Shown here piece after piece: positions 16,857-26,093 of a DNA stretch of 64,000 nt (positions within the stretch are counted from its first letter, which is position 1; each line of letters starts with the position of its first letter). This DNA comes from Sphingobacterium faecium. Lineage in GTDB: Bacteria; Bacteroidota; Bacteroidia; Sphingobacteriales; Sphingobacteriaceae. The position numbers were made by a program, and so were the translations under genes. Location: assembly GCF_003054045.1 (NCBI RefSeq), contig NZ_QBKH01000001.1:682001-746000 (forward strand). Reading direction: 5' to 3'. Below the pieces are notes generated by a model. It was not told where the DNA came from, searched no databases, and saw nothing but the letters and a program-made list of their open reading frames with translations.

Positions 16857-18626
16857 ATGAAAACGATATTTTATACCCTAATAGCACTTTTATTTACAGT
16901 AGCGTCTTGTAAAAATGTGTTAGATATTGAAGATCTTAATTCACTTGACGAAAGCAAAGTATGGAATGATCCGAATCTTGTGAATGCCTATATAACGAAT
17001 CTTTATCCCATGTTTGGAAATTGGAATGCTTCAGCGGATGCCAATTCAGAGCAATTAATGGGCATATCTTTTCCTTTGGATGCTATCACTGTTAACAATG
17101 CCGCTTATAAATCTTGGGATTATACCACTATCCGTAGAATTAATACTGCAATTCAAAAAGTAACCGAAAGTGCAGGATTAAATGCAGATGTAAAAAATGC
17201 TGTTCTTGGGCAAGCTTTATTTATGAGAGCATATATGTATTTTAATATGGTTCGATATCATGGTGGTGTGCCCTATATTACTGTACCGCAGGATTTGGAG
17301 AAAGATGATCTAGAAACACCTCGTAATACAACGAAGGAATGCTTTGATTTAATGATAAAAGATCTAGATCAGGCGATTGCCATATTGCCGCCTATGATTG
17401 CCAAAAGTTCAGGAGATTATGGTAGAATCGATGGGAATTTTGCACTATCTTTTAAAGCTAAGGTTTTATTGTACAAGGCTTCCCCTCAGTTTAATCCAAC
17501 TAACCCTTATAATAATGTGTATTGGGCAGAAGCGCATGCTGCAAATAAAGCTGCCTATGATAAGTTAAAGGCTGATGGATATAATTTGACTCCAGACTAT
17601 GCTAACATTGCTTTGCAGGAGAAGGGATCTGAAGTTGTTTTTGCTGTAATCAATTCGTATCCGAATAAAGTGGCGAGTTGGGATAATGGAGTGCGCCCAG
17701 GTTCTGAAAGTAGAGGCGCAGCAGGTGCAGTTCCAACATGGGATTTTGTCAAGTTATTTCCCATGAAAGATGGTAAGGCTTTCTCAGATCTGACAGGTAA
17801 GTATTTTAAAACGAATGAGCAGTTTTTACAATCTTATTGGGAAAATAGAGATCCTCGGTTCGACAAATCTATTGTATGGAATGGCAAGATCTACGAAGTT
17901 TCTGGGAAATCAGGGAAACGTCAATATACCTCTGTGGGTATAGCCGCAGATCTGGATAACTTTGGTATTAATCCTAAGGCTAAAACACCATCAGAAAATC
18001 TGAATCGATATAGTGGATTTTTTATACTTAAAAATTCAAAGTTATCGCTGAAGCAAACAGAAGTAGAAACTCAATATGATGTGGATTTTGTACTGATGAG
18101 ATTTGCGGAGGTTATGATCAACTATGCTGAAACTGCAAACGAAACCGGGGATTTTAATACCGCATTAACCATTCTAAAACAGATCAGGATGCGTGCAGGT
18201 ATTGAAGCAGGAAGTGACGGAAATTACGGTATTACCGCTATTGACCGTACTCAGATGAGAGATGCAATTTTGGCAGAACGGAATATTGAGTTTTGTTTTG
18301 AAGGACACCGTTTCTGGGATCTGAGAAGAACTCGAAAATTGAATATACTTAATAATACGACCAAATATGGTGTAGAGGCTATTGCTATTCTTAGTAATGG
18401 GGCTGAAATGGATTTGGATGAGGCCGCAAATCTTGCCAAAACTTATCAGCTTAAGGAAAATCAGTTTAAATACAGTGTTTTACAAGTTCCAAATACGGGA
18501 AATAAAGTAAATCTTGTACCCGATACTTATTACTTCTTTCCATTAGCTCAATCTGTGATTGATAAAAATCCTAAAATATCACAGAATAAGGATTGGGGTG
18601 GAACTTTTAATCCGACACTGGAATAG
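16857..18626 (+). CDS. SusD/RagB family nutrient-binding lipoprotein
   Basis: A 589-residue outer-membrane lipoprotein with lipobox VASC (Cys18). TPR-like helices and the SusD features GQALFMRAYMYFNMVRYHGGVPYI (about residue 120) and LAERNIEFCFEGHRFWDLRR (about 475) are present. It forms the lid over the SusC barrel. It starts 11 bp after susC and a terminator follows, so the uptake operon ends here. No glycosidase or peptidase follows to hint at the ligand. Confidence 0.94.
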   Translation: MKTIFYTLIALLFTVASCKNVLDIEDLNSLDESKVWNDPNLVNAYITNLYPMFGNWNASADANSEQLMGISFPLDAITVNNAAYKSWDYTTIRRINTAIQKVTESAGLNADVKNAVLGQALFMRAYMYFNMVRYHGGVPYITVPQDLEKDDLETPRNTTKECFDLMIKDLDQAIAILPPMIAKSSGDYGRIDGNFALSFKAKVLLYKASPQFNPTNPYNNVYWAEAHAANKAAYDKLKADGYNLTPDYANIALQEKGSEVVFAVINSYPNKVASWDNGVRPGSESRGAAGAVPTWDFVKLFPMKDGKAFSDLTGKYFKTNEQFLQSYWENRDPRFDKSIVWNGKIYEVSGKSGKRQYTSVGIAADLDNFGINPKAKTPSENLNRYSGFFILKNSKLSLKQTEVETQYDVDFVLMRFAEVMINYAETANETGDFNTALTILKQIRMRAGIEAGSDGNYGITAIDRTQMRDAILAERNIEFCFEGHRFWDLRRTRKLNILNNTTKYGVEAIAILSNGAEMDLDEAANLAKTYQLKENQFKYSVLQVPNTGNKVNLVPDTYYFFPLAQSVIDKNPKISQNKDWGGTFNPTLE

Positions 18627-19037: not shown

Positions 19038-19937
19038 ATGGAACGTCGAATTACATTTTTCACTTTAAAAGAATTTGTTGCTAGACAGATGAATAAGCAA
19101 CAGTATGATGGATTTACTATTTGTCATTTACAGAAAAATAAAATGGCCGATATTAAATTATATGAACCTATGCGCACGGATAGCTTTGGTATGAGTATCA
19201 TATTGAGTGGGAGGCTCCGGATGCGAATTGGTTTTTCAGAGCAAGAGATTCATGGAAACATGATTTTTCTACATTCGCCCACGACAATTATTGAATTTTT
19301 AGACATGGATGATGATCTTGATATGATCACTTTTATGTTTTCCTTAGATTTCGCAAAGAAAATTGGTATTTTTTTTCATGGTAAAACCTCTTTGGATTTC
19401 CTTCTTGATAATTATTTGCGCGTCTTTACCCTACAAGAGCGTGTTATAAAACGATTTGTGATGTATCTTGAGCATCTGCAGGAATTAAATTTGAGCACTA
19501 AACCCAGTAAAAATCAAGCAGAAATCATTAAAAATACTTTTGCCCTATTAAATTATGAAGTTGAATCTGAGTTAATGGGCGACATTGTTAATCGTGTTGT
19601 ACTGAGTGGAAGGAAAGAAAAGTTATGTTTGGATTTTATTACACAGGTGGTCGAACAATTTCAGAGTCATCGATCAGTACAATATTATGCAGATAGCTTA
19701 TTTGTTAGTCGGAAGTATCTCAGCCGAGTAGTCAAAGAAGTTACAGGAATGAGTCCGATGCAAATTATTGAACAAACATTGATGGCAGAAGTTACCGCTA
19801 AATTACGTTCCAATTTTTATTCAATTTCTGAAATTATGCAGCAATTAAACTTTAGTGATTTGCCAACGTTCAGTAAGTTTTTCAAAAAAAATATGGGACA
19901 ATCTCCCATTCTGTACCGTAAAGAATTGTTGAACTAG
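19038..19937 (+). CDS. AraC family transcriptional regulator
   Basis: A 299-residue regulator with an N-terminal cupin-like sensor region (about 20-170; SIILSGRLRMRIGFSEQEIHGNM) and a C-terminal pair of helix-turn-helices (YYADSLFVSRKYLSRVVKEVTGMSP, then SISEIMQQLNFSDLPTFSKFFKKNMGQSP). This layout suits a ligand-responsive activator. It lies after the SusCD operon and before the inositol cluster and could regulate either. Repeated TTGTCAAAA sites upstream suggest autoregulation. Confidence 0.9.
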   Translation: MERRITFFTLKEFVARQMNKQQYDGFTICHLQKNKMADIKLYEPMRTDSFGMSIILSGRLRMRIGFSEQEIHGNMIFLHSPTTIIEFLDMDDDLDMITFMFSLDFAKKIGIFFHGKTSLDFLLDNYLRVFTLQERVIKRFVMYLEHLQELNLSTKPSKNQAEIIKNTFALLNYEVESELMGDIVNRVVLSGRKEKLCLDFITQVVEQFQSHRSVQYYADSLFVSRKYLSRVVKEVTGMSPMQIIEQTLMAEVTAKLRSNFYSISEIMQQLNFSDLPTFSKFFKKNMGQSPILYRKELLN

Positions 19938-20468: not shown

Positions 20469-21794
20469 ATGAAACAGCAAGTGAATGAAGCAAAAGGCAA
20501 GCTTGGTATACTGATTCCAGGTTTGGGTGCAGTAGCCACCACATTGATCGCAGGTGTCGCAGGTATTAACAAAGGTTATTCGAAACCCATCGGTTCAGTT
20601 TCTCAATTGAGTCGCATTCGTTTAGGTAAGCGTACAGAGGATAGAAATCCATTGATTAAGGATTTTGTGCCATTAGCAAAATTGGAGGACATTGTATTTG
20701 GAGGATGGGACGTATATGCAGACAATGTTTATGAGGCCGCTTCAAAAGCTCGTGTATTAGAATCATACCAGTTGGAGCAGGTACGTGAAGAATTGGAGCA
20801 GATTACGCCTATGAAAGCCGTATTTGATCGCAGCTTTGTTAAAAACTTGGATGGCCAGCATATTAAAGAAGGTCTTTCAAGAAGAGCGCTAGCTGATGCG
20901 GTACAAGCGGATATCGAAAATTTTAAAAGGGATAATAACTGTGATCGTATTGTTGTACTTTGGTGTGGGTCAACAGAAAAATATATTGAAGGAGCTGATA
21001 TTTTTAATAGTTTGATGAATTTTGAAGATGCATTAGATCAGGATGACTCTCGTATTCCACCGAGTATGATCTATGCATATGCTGCTCTAAAACAAGGTGC
21101 GCCTTATGTCAATGGAGCACCAAACTTAAGTTGTGATGTTCCTGCAATAGTGGAGCTCGCACATCTTATGCAAGTTGCGATTGCTGGTAAGGATTTCAAA
21201 ACTGGTCAAACTTTAATGAAAACAATTGTTGCTCCAGGCTTGCAAGCTCGTGCATTAGGTGTCGAAGGTTGGTTCTCTACCAATATTTTAGGTAATAGAG
21301 ATGGACTTGTCTTAGATGATCCTGAGAATTTTAAGACAAAAGAAGTTTCAAAATTGAGCGTGCTGGAAGAGATATTAGACGCTAAGAAAAACCCTGAATT
21401 ATATGGCGACTTGTATCATAAAGTTCGCATCAATTATTATCCGCCACATGGTGATAATAAGGAGAGCTGGGACAATATTGATATTTTTGGTTGGATGGGA
21501 TATAAGATGCAGATTAAAATCAATTTCTTATGTAGAGATTCTATTTTAGCCGCTCCTGTAGCATTGGATTTAGCTTTATTTATTGATTTAGCACAACGTG
21601 CGGGTATGTTTGGCATTCAAGAATGGCTGTCTTTCTATTTAAAATCTCCTCAAACAGCACCTGGTTTACGTCCTGAGCACGATATATTTAAGCAATTGAT
21701 CAAGTTGCAAAATACATTACGTCATATGATGGGTGAAGATTTAATCACGCATTTAGGACTTGATTATTATCAGGAACTAGTGGATAGCATGTAA
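20469..21794 (+). CDS. myo-Inositol-phosphate synthase
   Basis: A 441-residue NAD-dependent enzyme converting glucose 6-phosphate to 1L-myo-inositol 1-phosphate (also called inositol 3-phosphate). Visible marks are LIPGLGAVATTLIAG (NAD loop, about residues 14-28), VLWCGSTEKY, GAPNLSCDVPAIVELA, GKDFKTGQT, STNILGNRDG (about 270) and KVRINYYPPHGDNKE with CRDSILAAPVALDLA, all typical of bacterial/eukaryote-like MIPS. It is the first gene of a six-gene same-strand cluster for a polar inositol lipid. A terminator-like hairpin lies between it and the next gene. Confidence 0.94.
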   Translation: MKQQVNEAKGKLGILIPGLGAVATTLIAGVAGINKGYSKPIGSVSQLSRIRLGKRTEDRNPLIKDFVPLAKLEDIVFGGWDVYADNVYEAASKARVLESYQLEQVREELEQITPMKAVFDRSFVKNLDGQHIKEGLSRRALADAVQADIENFKRDNNCDRIVVLWCGSTEKYIEGADIFNSLMNFEDALDQDDSRIPPSMIYAYAALKQGAPYVNGAPNLSCDVPAIVELAHLMQVAIAGKDFKTGQTLMKTIVAPGLQARALGVEGWFSTNILGNRDGLVLDDPENFKTKEVSKLSVLEEILDAKKNPELYGDLYHKVRINYYPPHGDNKESWDNIDIFGWMGYKMQIKINFLCRDSILAAPVALDLALFIDLAQRAGMFGIQEWLSFYLKSPQTAPGLRPEHDIFKQLIKLQNTLRHMMGEDLITHLGLDYYQELVDSM

Positions 21795-21814
21795 GCTATT
21801 ATAAAATTTACATC

Positions 21815-21851
21815 ACCCTTGAAGTATGTTAATAGTACTTTAAGGGTTTTT
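21815..21851 (+). terminator. Terminator hairpin between the MIPS and nucleotidyltransferase genes
   Basis: ACCCTTGAAGTA (21815-21826) pairs with TACTTTAAGGGT (21836-21847) with one G-U pair, then TTTTT. It ends 5 bp before the next ATG, so downstream genes require read-through or a separate promoter. Confidence 0.75.
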
Positions 21852-21855
21852 ATCT

Positions 21856-22575
21856 ATGAAGATGGAGTATGCGATTATAGCTGCTGGAGAGGGGCAGCGA
21901 TTAAAAGATGAAGGATTTCCTAAAGCTAAGCCTTTATTGACTTTGCTCGGTGTTCCTATGATTGAACGCTTGATCAATATTTTTGCTGATCAAGGAGCAA
22001 AGTCGGTATTTATTATTATTAATGAAAAGAATATAGAGTTGCATGAGTTTTTAGTAACACATGAATTTTCTATCCCTATTCATTTGTTGGTTAAGAACAC
22101 TATCAGTTCATTGCACAGTTTTGTTGCTTTGCAAGAAGCCTTCCCCAAGTGGGAGTCTTGTTGTCTAACGACTACAGATACGGTTTTCGATCCTAAAACT
22201 TTTGGACTTTATATTAAAGAGTTTCAACAAGGTAATATGGATGGTTTGTTTGCCGTTACCCCATTCGTGGATGATGAAAGCCCTTTATATGTTACAGTAG
22301 ATCATGATAAGCGTATCGTTTGTTTTTCAGATAACAAATATTCGCAGTCGGTATTTGTATCTGGAGGTATTTATTGTTTACGTAAGGATGCAATGCAAGC
22401 TGCAGAACAGTCTTTGGCTGCTGGAAATCATCGTATGCGAAATTATCAGCGATTCCTTATTGATCGTGGATTGATGATTAAGGCATATCCTTTCGAAAAG
22501 ATCGTAGATGTTGATCATCTTCATGATCAGGAAACTGCTGAATACTTTTTACTTGAACAAAAGATACGATCATGA
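21856..22575 (+). CDS. Nucleotidyltransferase, probably inositol-phosphate cytidylyltransferase
   Basis: A 239-residue NTP-transferase (GT-A-like Rossmann) protein. AAGEGQRLKDEGFPKAKPLL at residues 8-27 is the nucleotide-binding signature (GxGxRL...PK), TTTDTVFD (about 105) supplies a metal-binding Asp, and VDVDHLHD sits near the C-terminus. Relatives activate sugar or polyol phosphates with CTP, UTP or GTP. Between MIPS and a CDP-alcohol phosphatidyltransferase, the simplest inference is CTP:inositol-phosphate cytidylyltransferase making CDP-inositol, as in archaeal di-myo-inositol-phosphate synthesis. Nucleotide and substrate are inferred, not seen. The stop overlaps the next start (ATGA). 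Confidence 0.78.
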   Translation: MKMEYAIIAAGEGQRLKDEGFPKAKPLLTLLGVPMIERLINIFADQGAKSVFIIINEKNIELHEFLVTHEFSIPIHLLVKNTISSLHSFVALQEAFPKWESCCLTTTDTVFDPKTFGLYIKEFQQGNMDGLFAVTPFVDDESPLYVTVDHDKRIVCFSDNKYSQSVFVSGGIYCLRKDAMQAAEQSLAAGNHRMRNYQRFLIDRGLMIKAYPFEKIVDVDHLHDQETAEYFLLEQKIRS

Positions 22576-23480
22576 GAGTTTACGGAATTTTGAGAAAAAA
22601 TGACTTTTCTCCCAATCACATCAATAATGATATTGCTATTTTTCAGCAAGTAATCCGTTTATTGGAAAAAGAGGGAGTGAGTATTACCGTCGTGACCGAA
22701 GATGAGTTTTTGGTGATGAAAGATTATGATAAAGAACCCATCATTACGATGGGTCGATCAAAAGCTTTGGTGCATCGTCTTCAAGAGCTAGAGCGCACTG
22801 GTGTTTTAATTATCAATTCTTCATTTGGTATTCAAAACTGCTATCGGACTCTTATGACTACCAAATTGGTTGAGAATCAAGTACCGTATCCAGACAGCAT
22901 CATTGTCGATACACATGCAGATATCGAAGCTATATTTGATATTTTGGGAGTACCCGGTATCTGGATAAAAAGAGGAGATTTTCATGCCGTTCATAAAGAA
23001 GATGTTAGTTTCGTGAGTACAAAAGCTGAGGCGAATAATATTTTAGCGGAGTATGCGCTACGTGGTATTGAAGAAGCTGTCATATCACAGCATCTTTTTG
23101 GGGATTTAGTTAAGTTTTATGCAGTAGCTGGAACCGATTTTTTCTACTGGTTTCATCCTTATGATCTAAATCATCATAAATATGCGGCATATGAACAAAT
23201 TAATGGTGCTACTGCACATTATGCATTTGATGAGGCAGCGTTACAGCAGACTGCGCAACTTGCTGCCGAAGTATTAGGAGTTTCTATTTATGGCGGGGAT
23301 GCTATCATACATGCTGATGGAAATTTTCATATTATAGATTTAAATGATTGGCCGAGCTTTGCACCTTGTAGAGAAGTAGCTGCAGAAGCAATAGCCACCC
23401 ATATTTTTAATAAATTTTCTGACTTTATAGATCTAACGATCTTTCAGGAAGAAGATAAAGATGATATTAATTATGTCTAA
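22572..23480 (+). CDS. ATP-grasp family protein of unknown role in the inositol-lipid operon
   Basis: A 302-residue ATP-grasp-type protein resembling RimK/D-ala-ligase-like kinases and ligases. A pre-ATP-grasp region at about residues 1-85 is followed by INSSFGIQNCYRTLMTTKLVENQ, GIWIKRGDFHA (phosphate-loop/Lys region, about 135), ISQHLFGDLVKFYAVAG and, near residue 255, GGDAIIHADGNFHIIDLNDWPSF, where Asp and Asn fit the Mg-ATP ligands. It has no signal or membrane segment. It overlaps both neighbours, so it belongs to the inositol-lipid pathway. It might phosphorylate inositol (the ITPK family also uses this fold) or attach an amino acid. The actual reaction is unknown. Confidence 0.75.
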   Translation: MRVYGILRKNDFSPNHINNDIAIFQQVIRLLEKEGVSITVVTEDEFLVMKDYDKEPIITMGRSKALVHRLQELERTGVLIINSSFGIQNCYRTLMTTKLVENQVPYPDSIIVDTHADIEAIFDILGVPGIWIKRGDFHAVHKEDVSFVSTKAEANNILAEYALRGIEEAVISQHLFGDLVKFYAVAGTDFFYWFHPYDLNHHKYAAYEQINGATAHYAFDEAALQQTAQLAAEVLGVSIYGGDAIIHADGNFHIIDLNDWPSFAPCREVAAEAIATHIFNKFSDFIDLTIFQEEDKDDINYV

Positions 23481-24408
23481 ATCAGAGCATACATTATTTG
23501 AACAATCACTTAAGTCAAATGATACGGAAGAGAGGATCGACATTTGGTTTTATAGACCTATAGGTTACCGTATTGCCAAAGTTTGTGCGAGTTTAGGAGT
23601 GACCCCCAATGCGGTTACAATCACCAGTATATTTTTTGGGGTGGGTGCGGGCATATTATTTTATTTTTCTGAATTGTGGATTAATGTTATCGGTATGCTC
23701 CTATTAATATTTGCAAATTCTTTAGATAGTGCAGATGGTCAATTAGCTCGAATGACAGATAATAAAAGTCGATTTGGAAGAATTTTAGATGGATTTGCTG
23801 GTGATTTTTGGTTTGCAGCGATTCACATTGCCCTGTGTTTGCGTTCTATGAATGAAGGCTGGACAGCTTGGATATGGGTACCTGGAGTATTGGCAGGAGT
23901 ATCTCATGTATTCCAATCGGCCATGGCTGATTATTATCGAAATGTACATCTGTATTTCATAAAGGGGAAAGCAGGTAGCGAACTGGATAACTCAACCGAA
24001 CTTCAAGCAGAGCTGGACAAAATGAGTTGGAAGAAAGACTTTTTTCAAAAATTCGTACTCAATGGCTATAAGAATTATACCAAAATGCAAGAAAACTTTT
24101 CTCCAAAGCTTCAACACTTACTGCATCTGGTCAAGTTTAAATTTCAAGATCAGATGCCGGCAACCTTTATACATGCTTTTCGTCTTCGTAATAGACCCTT
24201 GATGAAATATACCAATATTGTCCAGTTTAACACCCGCGTACTGTTTTTGTTCTTGTGGATTTTTATTGATCAGGTATGGTTATATTTCTTTTTTGATATG
24301 TTCATTCTCAACCCCATTCTGATTTATATGTGTAACAGGCAAGAACGAGTAAGTGCTCATTTTATCGATCAGTTAGCATCATCCAAATACGATGAAGAAC
24401 ATATATAA
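23461..24408 (+). CDS. CDP-alcohol phosphatidyltransferase family membrane protein
   Basis: A 315-residue integral membrane enzyme. The family motif is plain at about residues 88-115: DSADGQLAR, eight residues, GRILDGFAGD. The canonical pattern is DxxDGxxAR-x8-GxxxDxxxD. Here the last Asp is one residue late and Gly occupies its usual place. Several hydrophobic helices surround it and more follow at the C-terminus. By context it should transfer phosphoinositol, or a diacylglycerol or ceramide phosphate, to build an inositol phospholipid. ATG at 23461 overlaps the ATP-grasp gene by 20 bp; the downstream ATG at 23473 (MSKSEH) is an alternative start. Confidence 0.85.
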   Translation: MILIMSKSEHTLFEQSLKSNDTEERIDIWFYRPIGYRIAKVCASLGVTPNAVTITSIFFGVGAGILFYFSELWINVIGMLLLIFANSLDSADGQLARMTDNKSRFGRILDGFAGDFWFAAIHIALCLRSMNEGWTAWIWVPGVLAGVSHVFQSAMADYYRNVHLYFIKGKAGSELDNSTELQAELDKMSWKKDFFQKFVLNGYKNYTKMQENFSPKLQHLLHLVKFKFQDQMPATFIHAFRLRNRPLMKYTNIVQFNTRVLFLFLWIFIDQVWLYFFFDMFILNPILIYMCNRQERVSAHFIDQLASSKYDEEHI

Positions 24409-25387
24409 GCTGCTTTTCTTGATCATCGGAGTGATCACGCTTGGGTATATGATCTATAATATTGGTACAACTAAAATTTGGATCAATATGCTACAGACAG
24501 GTTGGTGGTTTGTTCCCATTTTACTTAGTTGGTTGATCATTTATATCATAAATGCGGTGGCTTTTAAGGCTATTATTGAAGAACCTACTGTTCCTGGAAC
24601 TAAATTGCCATTTCTTAAGATCTTACAGTTGACAGTAAGTGGTTATAGTATTAATTATGTCACTCCCTTTGTGGCATTAGGAGGGGAACCCTATCGGATT
24701 ATGGAATTAAAACCATTCTTAGGTGAAGCAAAAGCTAGCTCCTCAGTATTGTTGTACGGCATGGTGCATATCCTATCCCATATTGTTTTTTGGTTGGTTT
24801 CTATCGTTTTGATTTTAGCAGTACTTCCATTAAGTCCGACTATGTTGATACTATGCTTATTTATTTTATTATTTGGACTGGGTATCTTTTGGTCATTCTC
24901 GAAAATTTATAAACGTGGATTTACGGTAACTATATTACGGTTTTTACAGAGAATACCGCTTGTTGGAAAATATGCGTGTACATTTTACAAAGAAAAAAGA
25001 ACAGTCTTAGAGCATATTGATGAACAAATCAAAGATTTATATGCGCAGCGCAGATCTCAATTTTTTAAAGCTTTGTTTTTGGAATTCTTTGCTCGGGTTA
25101 TTGGTTGTGCAGAACTTTATTTTATTGCTATAGCACTCGGTTTAGACATGAATATCATTCAAGCATTTATCGTTAGTTCAGGCTCATCTTTATTTGCAAA
25201 TCTCATCTTCTTTTTACCGATGCAATTAGGTACTCGTGAAGGAGGGTTAGCGATGGCGGTGACCAGCATTGGATTTTCAGCTTCAGTTGGTATATTTATG
25301 GGGCTAGCAACGCGTATACGTGAGATTATATGGATCGCAATAGGATTGATTTGGATGAGTATTGTGCGTAAAGAAATCATGAATTAA
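24392..25387 (+). CDS. Flippase-like LPG_synthase_TM membrane protein
   Basis: A 331-residue polytopic protein of the lysylphosphatidylglycerol-synthase transmembrane (UPF0104/TIGR00374) family, with about 8 hydrophobic helices and the conserved C-terminal block FFLPMQLGTREGGL (about residues 270-283). The MprF-like catalytic domain is absent. The family is associated with lipid flipping or lipid-linked transfer, so in this operon it may move the inositol lipid across the membrane. It overlaps the phosphatidyltransferase gene by 17 bp and is followed after 1 bp by the HAD gene, which points to translational coupling. Confidence 0.83.
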   Translation: MKNIYKLLFLIIGVITLGYMIYNIGTTKIWINMLQTGWWFVPILLSWLIIYIINAVAFKAIIEEPTVPGTKLPFLKILQLTVSGYSINYVTPFVALGGEPYRIMELKPFLGEAKASSSVLLYGMVHILSHIVFWLVSIVLILAVLPLSPTMLILCLFILLFGLGIFWSFSKIYKRGFTVTILRFLQRIPLVGKYACTFYKEKRTVLEHIDEQIKDLYAQRRSQFFKALFLEFFARVIGCAELYFIAIALGLDMNIIQAFIVSSGSSLFANLIFFLPMQLGTREGGLAMAVTSIGFSASVGIFMGLATRIREIIWIAIGLIWMSIVRKEIMN

Positions 25388-25388
25388 T

Positions 25389-26093
25389 ATGAAGAAAATA
25401 ACAGGTATAAAAGGATTGTTGTTTGATTATGGCGGAACATTAGATACCAATGGAAGACATTGGGCTGCTGTTTTTTTTGAACAATATCAGCAACATGGGA
25501 TAGCGATCGAAAAGTCAGATTTCTATAACGCTTATGTGTATGCTGAACGTAAAATGGCAACACAGCCCATTATCAAATCTTCTTTTAATTTTAAAGATGT
25601 ACTTTTTGCAAAGATTAATGCTCAGTTTGAGTATCTAAAAATGGAAACTTTAGTTGATAGTGTAGGTCTACAAATTGTGAATGCTTGTGATACGATTGTA
25701 TTAGATTGTTTGAAAAGAATACAACCTTTATTAGCATCTTTATCTATACAGTATAAGATGGTTATGGTATCCAATTTTTATGGCAATTTAGCGCATGTAT
25801 TAAACGATTATGACATGACGCACTACTTTCAAACGGTTATTGAATCTTCACTTGTAGGGGTTCGTAAACCTAATCCTGAAATCTATACATTAGGAGTTGC
25901 AGCTTTAGGATTACCTGCAGATGCGTGTGTTGTTATTGGAGATTCCTACACGAAAGATATGGAGCCGGGCAAGGTAAATGGTTGTAAAACAATATGGCTG
26001 AATGGTGATGGTTGGGAAGAAAAACCACTTATTTCAACAGAAGCTGCCGATTTTATGATTACTGATATACTACAACTGAAGAAGTTGTTATAG
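25389..26093 (+). CDS. HAD family hydrolase (putative phosphatase of the inositol-lipid operon)
   Basis: A 234-residue HAD hydrolase. FDYGGTLDT (residues 13-21) holds the nucleophile Asp, but the +2 position is Gly instead of the general-acid Asp of DxD phosphatases. MVMVSNFYG is motif II, GVRKPNPEIY carries the motif III Lys, and IGDSYTKDMEPG is motif IV. A helical cap lies between motifs I and II. It may dephosphorylate an inositol phosphate or lipid phosphate intermediate, but the missing Asp leaves its phosphatase activity uncertain. Last gene of the operon. Confidence 0.82.
   Translation: MKKITGIKGLLFDYGGTLDTNGRHWAAVFFEQYQQHGIAIEKSDFYNAYVYAERKMATQPIIKSSFNFKDVLFAKINAQFEYLKMETLVDSVGLQIVNACDTIVLDCLKRIQPLLASLSIQYKMVMVSNFYGNLAHVLNDYDMTHYFQTVIESSLVGVRKPNPEIYTLGVAALGLPADACVVIGDSYTKDMEPGKVNGCKTIWLNGDGWEEKPLISTEAADFMITDILQLKKLL

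Follow-up and report, generated by a model that had tools for sequence, protein, structure and literature searches.

The 64,000-nucleotide stretch of the Sphingobacterium faecium genome analysed here (contig NZ_QBKH01000001.1; hereafter the window) contains six genes that encode a myo-inositol-1-phosphate synthase (MIPS), a nucleotidyltransferase, an ATP-grasp protein, a homologue of the CDP-alcohol phosphotransferases (CDP-AP), a flippase-like membrane protein and a HAD-family protein (Table 1). An initial annotation, made from the DNA letters alone, had read these genes as a one-strand inositol-phospholipid cassette whose last five members overlap or nearly touch. This layout is borne out: the six open reading frames all lie on the plus strand where they had been placed, Pfam agrees with the assigned names for five of the six, and the successive distances from the nucleotidyltransferase gene to the HAD gene are -4, -20, -17 and +1 nt. 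MIPS, the sole PF01658 match in its genome, stands 61 nt upstream of this tight unit of five, and the gap holds a strong terminator-like hairpin (-17 kcal/mol, fold z -4.48), so that the coupling of MIPS to the other five genes may be incomplete. Folding of the same gap in 11 other loci with adjoining genes, done without a shuffle control, gave long hairpins in several (here and in the locus counts below, L020 and L049 are one contig). Overall, the six genes form a real, conserved cassette that is a new variant of an already proposed route.

Table 1. Features of the inositol-lipid locus, in window coordinates.
Feature	Position	Strand	Evidence
MIPS (myo-inositol-1-phosphate synthase)	20469-21794	+	PF07994 5e-99, PF01658 1.3e-33
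Terminator-like hairpin between MIPS and the five-gene unit	21815-21847	+	13 pairs, then T-run
Nucleotidyltransferase, probable inositol-phosphate cytidylyltransferase	21856-22575	+	PF12804 8.9e-10 (NTP_transf_3), PF00483 2.4e-8 (NTP_transferase)
ATP-grasp protein, possible ITPK-like inositol-phosphate kinase	22572-23480	+	Family profile, conserved residues
CDP-AP homologue, Gly114 at D4, His149 conserved	23461-24408	+	PF01066 3.6e-12
LPG_synthase_TM / HpnL-like membrane protein, possible lipid flippase	24392-25387	+	PF03706 1.5e-22
HAD-family protein, possible phosphatase, motif I DxGGT	25389-26093	+	PF00702 1.2e-14

The reading of these genes as a functional unit had been tied to conservation of their order, and the order nucleotidyltransferase, ATP-grasp, CDP-AP, flippase-like protein, HAD is indeed kept in 26 of the 28 relatives' loci that we compared (L021-L032 and L049-L064; L020 was left out as a duplicate of L049). 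So recurrent an order indicates that the arrangement is not due to chance. Eight of the order-keeping loci contain inserted genes, four of them together with two ATP-grasp genes, while the two exceptions are L032, which lacks the flippase-like gene, and L054, in which the HAD gene is displaced. MIPS lies within the same stretch in 22 of the 28 loci. Across wider samples, and with the own genome counted in the first two, matches to the ATP-grasp protein came from 13 of 296 phylum genomes (E 0.001; one of these, in genome G103, is a weak partial match and was left out), 17 of 201 family genomes and 8 of 395 class genomes, five of the last being new. The class loci are more varied: the full order is seen in L146, the flippase-like gene is absent from L144 and L145, L153 is rearranged, and the genes of genome G636 are divided between two loci (L149 and L150). 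Since the flippase-like gene is missing from some of these loci, the steady core of the cassette is the nucleotidyltransferase, ATP-grasp, CDP-AP and HAD genes. A contig scan with a single-protein query gave one locus; a query built from an alignment would serve better.

The distribution of the cassette ties it to inositol. Each of the 17 family-sample genomes that have the ATP-grasp gene also has MIPS, as opposed to 76 of 201 overall (Fisher p 1.9e-8, uncorrected for kinship), and the eight MIPS-positive genomes of the own genus are the same eight that carry the ATP-grasp gene. Homologues of the PIP synthase and AUR1-like synthase of the Bacteroides-type route were detected in none of the 19 ATP-grasp-positive genomes tested (of 33 found in all), in all 11 MIPS-positive, ATP-grasp-negative genomes tested (of 59 in the family sample) and in none of the four MIPS-negative genomes tested; in the own genome, neither had a match at E 1e-15 and 1e-10. 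The seven family loci with MIPS and no ATP-grasp gene that were read (L110-L116) all have serine palmitoyltransferase (SPT), CerS-like and PIP synthase genes near MIPS, and within the stretch also CerR-like, TonB-linked regulatory and fatty-acid-hydroxylase-like (FAH) genes (6/7 each), GtrA-like and AUR1-like genes (5/7 each) and a PgpA-like gene (4/7). Among five further MIPS stretches from the class, L155-L158 contain PIP synthase, and L154 has an AUR1-like gene without PIP synthase. The labels CerS, CerR, GtrA, TonB-linked and FAH denote sequence types to which we take these proteins to belong, while the PAP2 and CDP-OH_P_transf domains in the sphingolipid loci were checked by Pfam.

Several relatives carry the cassette in this same setting. 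The cassettes of L059 and L062 sit in their entirety between CerS, CerR, MIPS and TonB-linked genes on one side and an FAH gene on the other; in L021 SPT, CerS, CerR and TonB-linked genes lie immediately upstream; in L054 the cassette has CerR, TonB-linked and FAH genes beside it; and in L063 the TonB-linked gene alone of this group adjoins it. Because the cassette stands, in these relatives, among sphingolipid genes and at the usual place of the Bacteroides-type genes, it probably replaces them as another route to inositol phosphoceramide. The inositol-lipid function proposed by the initial annotation is therefore well supported by gene context, though ceramide is a likelier acceptor than a glycerolipid. 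With the PIPS/PIPPh/AUR1-like route of B. thetaiotaomicron (BT_1522-1526) the cassette shares its start at MIPS, probably its end product and, in some family relatives, its sphingolipid-gene neighbourhood; that route differs in using a CDP-AP with the canonical fourth aspartate, a PgpA-like phosphatase and a PAP2-type transferase.

The own genome also encodes an SPT, which scores 776 bits against the solved SPT structure 3a2b (presumably the S. multivorum enzyme) and is adjoined by CerS-like, CerR-like and GtrA-like genes. Ceramide phosphorylinositol has been reported from one Sphingobacterium strain (PMC5824009), an observation that is supporting rather than direct evidence for the cassette. 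Two points weigh against a simple link. At least 20 of the own-genus genomes listed in the sample are without both MIPS and the ATP-grasp gene, so the published lipid cannot simply be credited to the cassette, and the SPT and ceramide genes of the own genome are on another contig.

A route of this kind has been proposed before. Heaver et al. (2022, PMC9246714) described an alternative cluster beside MIPS with an NTP transferase, a CDP-AP and a HAD protein, inferred a CDP-inositol intermediate, noted an LPG synthase-like neighbour as well as moderate homology of the cluster in Sphingobacteria, and left the route unconfirmed; a review (PMC10191378) likewise treats it as an in silico prediction, still incompletely characterised. 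The CDP-inositol route, which was the central inference of the initial annotation, thus fits the nucleotidyltransferase but is not new. The main text of Heaver et al. uses neither "ATP-grasp" nor "flippase", and a literature search by title and abstract start did not find an ATP-grasp gene in the setting of an inositol-lipid cluster. Compared by description, their B. vulgatus/Prevotella cluster resembles that of the window in its MIPS, NTP transferase, CDP-AP, HAD and nearby LPG synthase-like genes, and its locus tags (BVU_RS13095/13105/13115) would allow a single gene to lie at the ATP-grasp place and another at the flippase place. It differs in its CDP-AP, which its authors describe finding with a pattern (DX2DGX2AR...GX3DX3D) that ends in the fourth aspartate, where the window protein has Gly.

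What the nucleotidyltransferase makes can be judged from its family and context, which point to CDP-inositol or CDP-inositol phosphate as the likely product. A family profile matched the inositol-phosphate cytidylyltransferase (IPCT) structure 4jd0 at 2.2e-8 and the phosphocholine cytidylyltransferase LicC (1jyk) at 3.3e-8; sugar-1-phosphate nucleotidyltransferases scored best, above IPCT, which weighs against this assignment. On the 238 positions of the profile, the IPCT alignments span 5-223 (4jd0) and 1-232 (4mnd), and 2xme ends at 189 like the sugar enzymes. R15, K25 and D108 are invariant in 20 rows and by motif position would be the active-site Arg, Lys and Asp of IPCT. The IPCT/DIPPS systems of hyperthermophiles similarly pair a cytidylyltransferase with a CDP-AP that uses CDP-activated inositol, but they yield a different product, and the fourth aspartate is lost from the CDP-AP of the window; we know of no ATP-grasp protein in them. 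A parallel on the ceramide side is Caulobacter CpgD (PMC12275187), a nucleotidyltransferase making a CDP-activated head group that is required for a ceramide lipid, although there the head group is glycerate, not inositol.

Heaver et al. envisaged a Kennedy-type pathway, in which the nucleotidyltransferase would form CDP-inositol directly from the MIPS product, the CDP-AP would join it to diacylglycerol (DAG), and the HAD protein would convert the resulting phosphoinositol (PI) lipid, PI-DAG, to PI-ceramide. On this view the ATP-grasp protein would be an accessory. This scheme is published for clusters in which genes of these kinds (NTP transferase, CDP-AP, HAD) neighbour MIPS, the same gene types recur in the window, and its authors cite CDP-inositol in hyperthermophiles. 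It does not, however, explain the ATP-grasp gene: of the 395 class genomes, nine have this CDP-AP, and eight of the nine carry the ATP-grasp gene too. A HAD protein that moves phosphoinositol between lipids would also, in our judgement, be unusual. We consider this pathway unlikely, if the best of the alternatives to a ceramide route with a kinase step.

The case for such a step rests on the ATP-grasp protein. This protein has no Pfam match at E 0.001, and its NCBIfam matches are confined to RimK/LysX types below cut-off (best 3.9e-9); an ATP-grasp fold is suggested by weak profile matches, and a model of the protein had a pLDDT of 34.8. When a profile of 29 family members was compared with the PDB, ITPKs took ranks 1 and 3-7 (plant ITPK4 7pup, 6.9e-6; Entamoeba ITPK 1z2n, 9.4e-4; human ITPK1, about 3e-3), compared with 1.5e-4 for the ATP-grasp protein 7drm, 0.067 for LysX 3vpb and 0.22 for a RimK-type ligase; an unrelated flagellar protein at 0.045, between the ITPKs and LysX, marks the noise level. 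K181, D243, D256 and N258 are present in 38/38 members. Among the aligned ITPKs, Lys occurs at position 181 in both that cover it (7pup and 1z2n) and Asp-x-Asn (256/258) in three, human ITPK1 included. We read the Lys, Asp and Asp-x-Asn positions as defining ITPKs. By its family profile and these residues the protein looks closer to the inositol-phosphate kinases than to amide ligases, and a kinase is the favoured, if not established, assignment. It resembles the ITPK family (PF05770) in profile rank and in these positions, and differs in being bacterial and below the Pfam cut-off; a 2021 review (PMC8024741) describes ITPKs as eukaryotic enzymes with archaeal examples (Lokiarchaeota) too, and its passages on them mention no bacterial ITPK.

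A number of results count against the kinase assignment. With the window protein as lone query, LysX came first (0.002) and an ITPK scored 0.2. In the reverse test, PF05770 picked up the ATP-grasp protein in a single genome out of 28 positive ones (E 0.24) and in none above cut-off, and Pfam scans of single members gave weak matches throughout (RimK 4/29, ATPgrasp_ST 4/29, Ins134_P3_kin 2/29). AlphaFold2 models were too poor to be of use, both for the ATP-grasp protein alone and for the CDP-AP with one relative (pLDDT 36.2). Finally, although plant ITPK1 phosphorylates inositol 3-phosphate (Ins3P; PMC7618535), AtITPK4, the best PDB match, did not act on it (PMC7614388).

The ATP-grasp protein could instead act as a ligase and couple an amino acid to the inositol head group by an amide or ester bond, giving an aminoacyl-inositol lipid. 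Its RimK/LysX-type matches are in keeping with this, and the aminotransferase and oxidoreductase genes found in distant relatives could aminate the ring. On the other hand, K181 and D256 (38/38) agree with the ITPKs, whereas 3vpb and 7drm have Arg and Glu at positions 181 and 256, the core cassette has no amine-making gene, and the lipid reported from a Sphingobacterium is ceramide phosphorylinositol. A ligase thus appears quite improbable to us. By the same token, we think an ITPK-like kinase that works with the HAD protein likelier than the lasting head-group modification that the initial annotation had assigned to this gene, in view of the kinase-like conserved residues and of the ceramide phosphorylinositol reported from that strain; neither reading is proven.

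The CDP-AP presents a puzzle of its own. It matches PF01066 at 47.4 bits (cut-off 22) and keeps seven of the eight signature residues, but has Gly114 at the fourth aspartate, D4, the accepted catalytic base of CDP-alcohol phosphotransferases; judged by its sequence, it is a homologue and not a canonical member of the family. In an alignment of 66 CDP-AP sequences, 38 lack D4 (36 with Gly, 2 with Ser) and 28 have it. The clade of the window protein (40 sequences) comprises all 38 D4-less proteins and two with D4 (L095 and L096), and the tree requires two changes of D4 state, or one in 38% of bootstrap trees. Of the D4-less proteins, 33 are encoded in ATP-grasp loci and four in genomes with an ATP-grasp gene elsewhere. 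Two findings weigh against a firm connection between D4 loss and the kinase candidate: the remaining D4-less protein belongs to a genome without a detected ATP-grasp gene (G581), and D4 is also lost in CDP-AP paralogues outside the cassette. The D4-less proteins outside ATP-grasp loci indicate that D4 loss is a trait of the clade, not strictly tied to the kinase candidate. A rule that the ATP-grasp gene is present if and only if D4 is lost had held for 53 sequences, but was broken by the later-found paralogues and was dropped. These paralogues are in L147, L148, L151 and L152; by reading, that of L152 lies beside SDR-like and acyltransferase-like genes and that of L147 among fatty-acid-synthesis-like genes.

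A candidate for a substitute base is His149, which is present in 38/38 D4-less proteins versus 7/28 with D4. Histidine bases have been proposed in eukaryotic Kennedy-type enzymes, namely His155 or His197 in CEPT1 (PMC10156783) and, as a pair with Glu129, His133 on TM3 of xlCHPT1 (PMC10182977). His149 is not at the position of the xlCHPT1 pair, which counts against the analogy. It may occupy the position of CEPT1 His197, a correspondence that we offer as a lead only. A different solution would be that a D4-less CDP-AP uses a phosphate nucleophile such as ceramide 1-phosphate, which needs no base, with the HAD protein resolving the pyrophosphate-linked intermediate. The absence of D4 from 38/40 of the clade would be accommodated by this scheme, as would the near abolition of MtPIPS activity by a D4N mutation (PMC4634129), yet the conserved His149 puts an ordinary base on offer and none of the six genes resembles a ceramide kinase; we regard it as highly improbable.

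In a ceramide route with direct transfer, the HAD protein would act after the transfer. Motif I has the Asp nucleophile in 28/29 and Gly at D+2 in 28/29 proteins, L054 having Asn and Glu. The usual acid/base at D+2 is missing in 29/29, which speaks against an ordinary phosphatase, and given the Gly at D+2 a phosphatase role is one that we infer. An AUR1-like transferase activity of the HAD protein was judged less likely than a phosphatase one. The flippase-like protein scored 82.1 bits against the HpnL subfamily, below the cut-off of that model.

Our preferred scheme, to which we give an even chance, is that the nucleotidyltransferase, ATP-grasp, CDP-AP and HAD proteins, possibly with the flippase-like protein, convert inositol phosphate made by MIPS to inositol phosphoceramide, in place of the PIPS/PIPPh/AUR1-like set. 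MIPS would make inositol 3-phosphate, the ATP-grasp protein would phosphorylate a second position, and the nucleotidyltransferase would activate the new phosphate with CTP. The CDP-AP would then transfer phospho-inositol-phosphate straight to ceramide, with His149 replacing the missing D4 as base, after which the HAD protein would remove the original phosphate and the LPG_synthase_TM protein might help to move the lipid. The product of eukaryotic MIPS is 1D-Ins3P (PMC7618535), and we assume by analogy the same for the cassette enzyme. Direct activation of the MIPS phosphate would fix the lipid linkage at that position; a kinase/phosphatase pair would shift the linkage elsewhere and leave no trace in the product. 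Such a transient second phosphate, put on by the ATP-grasp protein and taken off by the HAD protein, would account for the joint retention of a kinase-like and a phosphatase-like gene. The genes, their order and co-occurrence, the replacement of the other route and the residue states are observed directly, whereas the enzymatic activities, the sequence of reactions, the acceptor and the part played by the flippase-like protein are deduced from them.

A soluble, DIP-like di-inositol-phosphate, formed from CDP-inositol and inositol phosphate and then dephosphorylated by the HAD protein as the phosphatase, is hardly credible, even though the bifunctional IPCT/DIPPS 4mnd is matched by the CDP-AP profile (2.6e-4) and the nucleotidyltransferase profile (9.8e-5), given that the cassette occupies the place of lipid genes, with a flippase-like gene in most loci and MlaE/F/D-type genes in distant ones.

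Enlarged forms of the cassette occur among the more distant relatives (L021-L032). MlaE-, MlaF- and MlaD-like genes lie between the nucleotidyltransferase and ATP-grasp genes in 8 of these 12 loci, and aminotransferase-III-like and Gfo/Idh/MocA-like genes flank the CDP-AP gene in 7 of 12; these identities rest on Pfam for the L023 set only, on reading the sequences of L026 (Mla-type) and L027, and elsewhere on position and length. The Mla-type genes suggest export of the lipid to the outer membrane, and the other pair suggests oxidation and transamination of the ring to an amino-inositol head group. L025, L027, L030 and L031 have a tandem pair of ATP-grasp genes.

Comparatively few bacteria have inositol lipids, and in a gut Bacteroides these lipids influence fitness (Heaver et al. 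2022, PMC9246714). To the published route our analysis adds ceramide as the acceptor pointed to, a kinase candidate not mentioned in the main text of that paper and an active-site puzzle, the absence of D4 beside a conserved His149. We put forward tentatively, and with less confidence than the core scheme, the combined picture of a bacterial ATP-grasp relative of the ITPKs in lipid assembly, a phosphate that relocates the linkage, a D4-less CDP-AP with a histidine base, trimming by a HAD protein, and distant Bacteroidota that make Mla-exported amino-inositol lipids. If inositol-phosphate kinases of this kind do exist in bacteria, they would be relevant to how inositol-phosphate signalling arose in eukaryotes.

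Further genes accompany the inositol-lipid loci. DUF4833 is fused to PIP synthase in L112 (a 436-aa open reading frame, by Pfam) and L113 (by reading), whereas in L059 (2333-2902, by Pfam), L021 and L054 (both by reading) it is a separate gene downstream of the ATP-grasp cassette; given its occurrence in both settings, it seems common to the two routes. In L021 (3117-4049, by Pfam) and in L054, L059 and L062 (by reading), the cassette is followed by a gene for a PfkB-type kinase, perhaps an inositol kinase for salvage. The Bacteroidetes-type promoter pattern had no matches in or near the cassette (5 in the whole window versus 3.7 expected), and sigma-70-like sites were at chance level (27 versus 28.5 expected). 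Upstream of MIPS, reading of the translations points to a SusD-like gene (16857-18626) and a gene for an AraC-type regulator (19038-19937).

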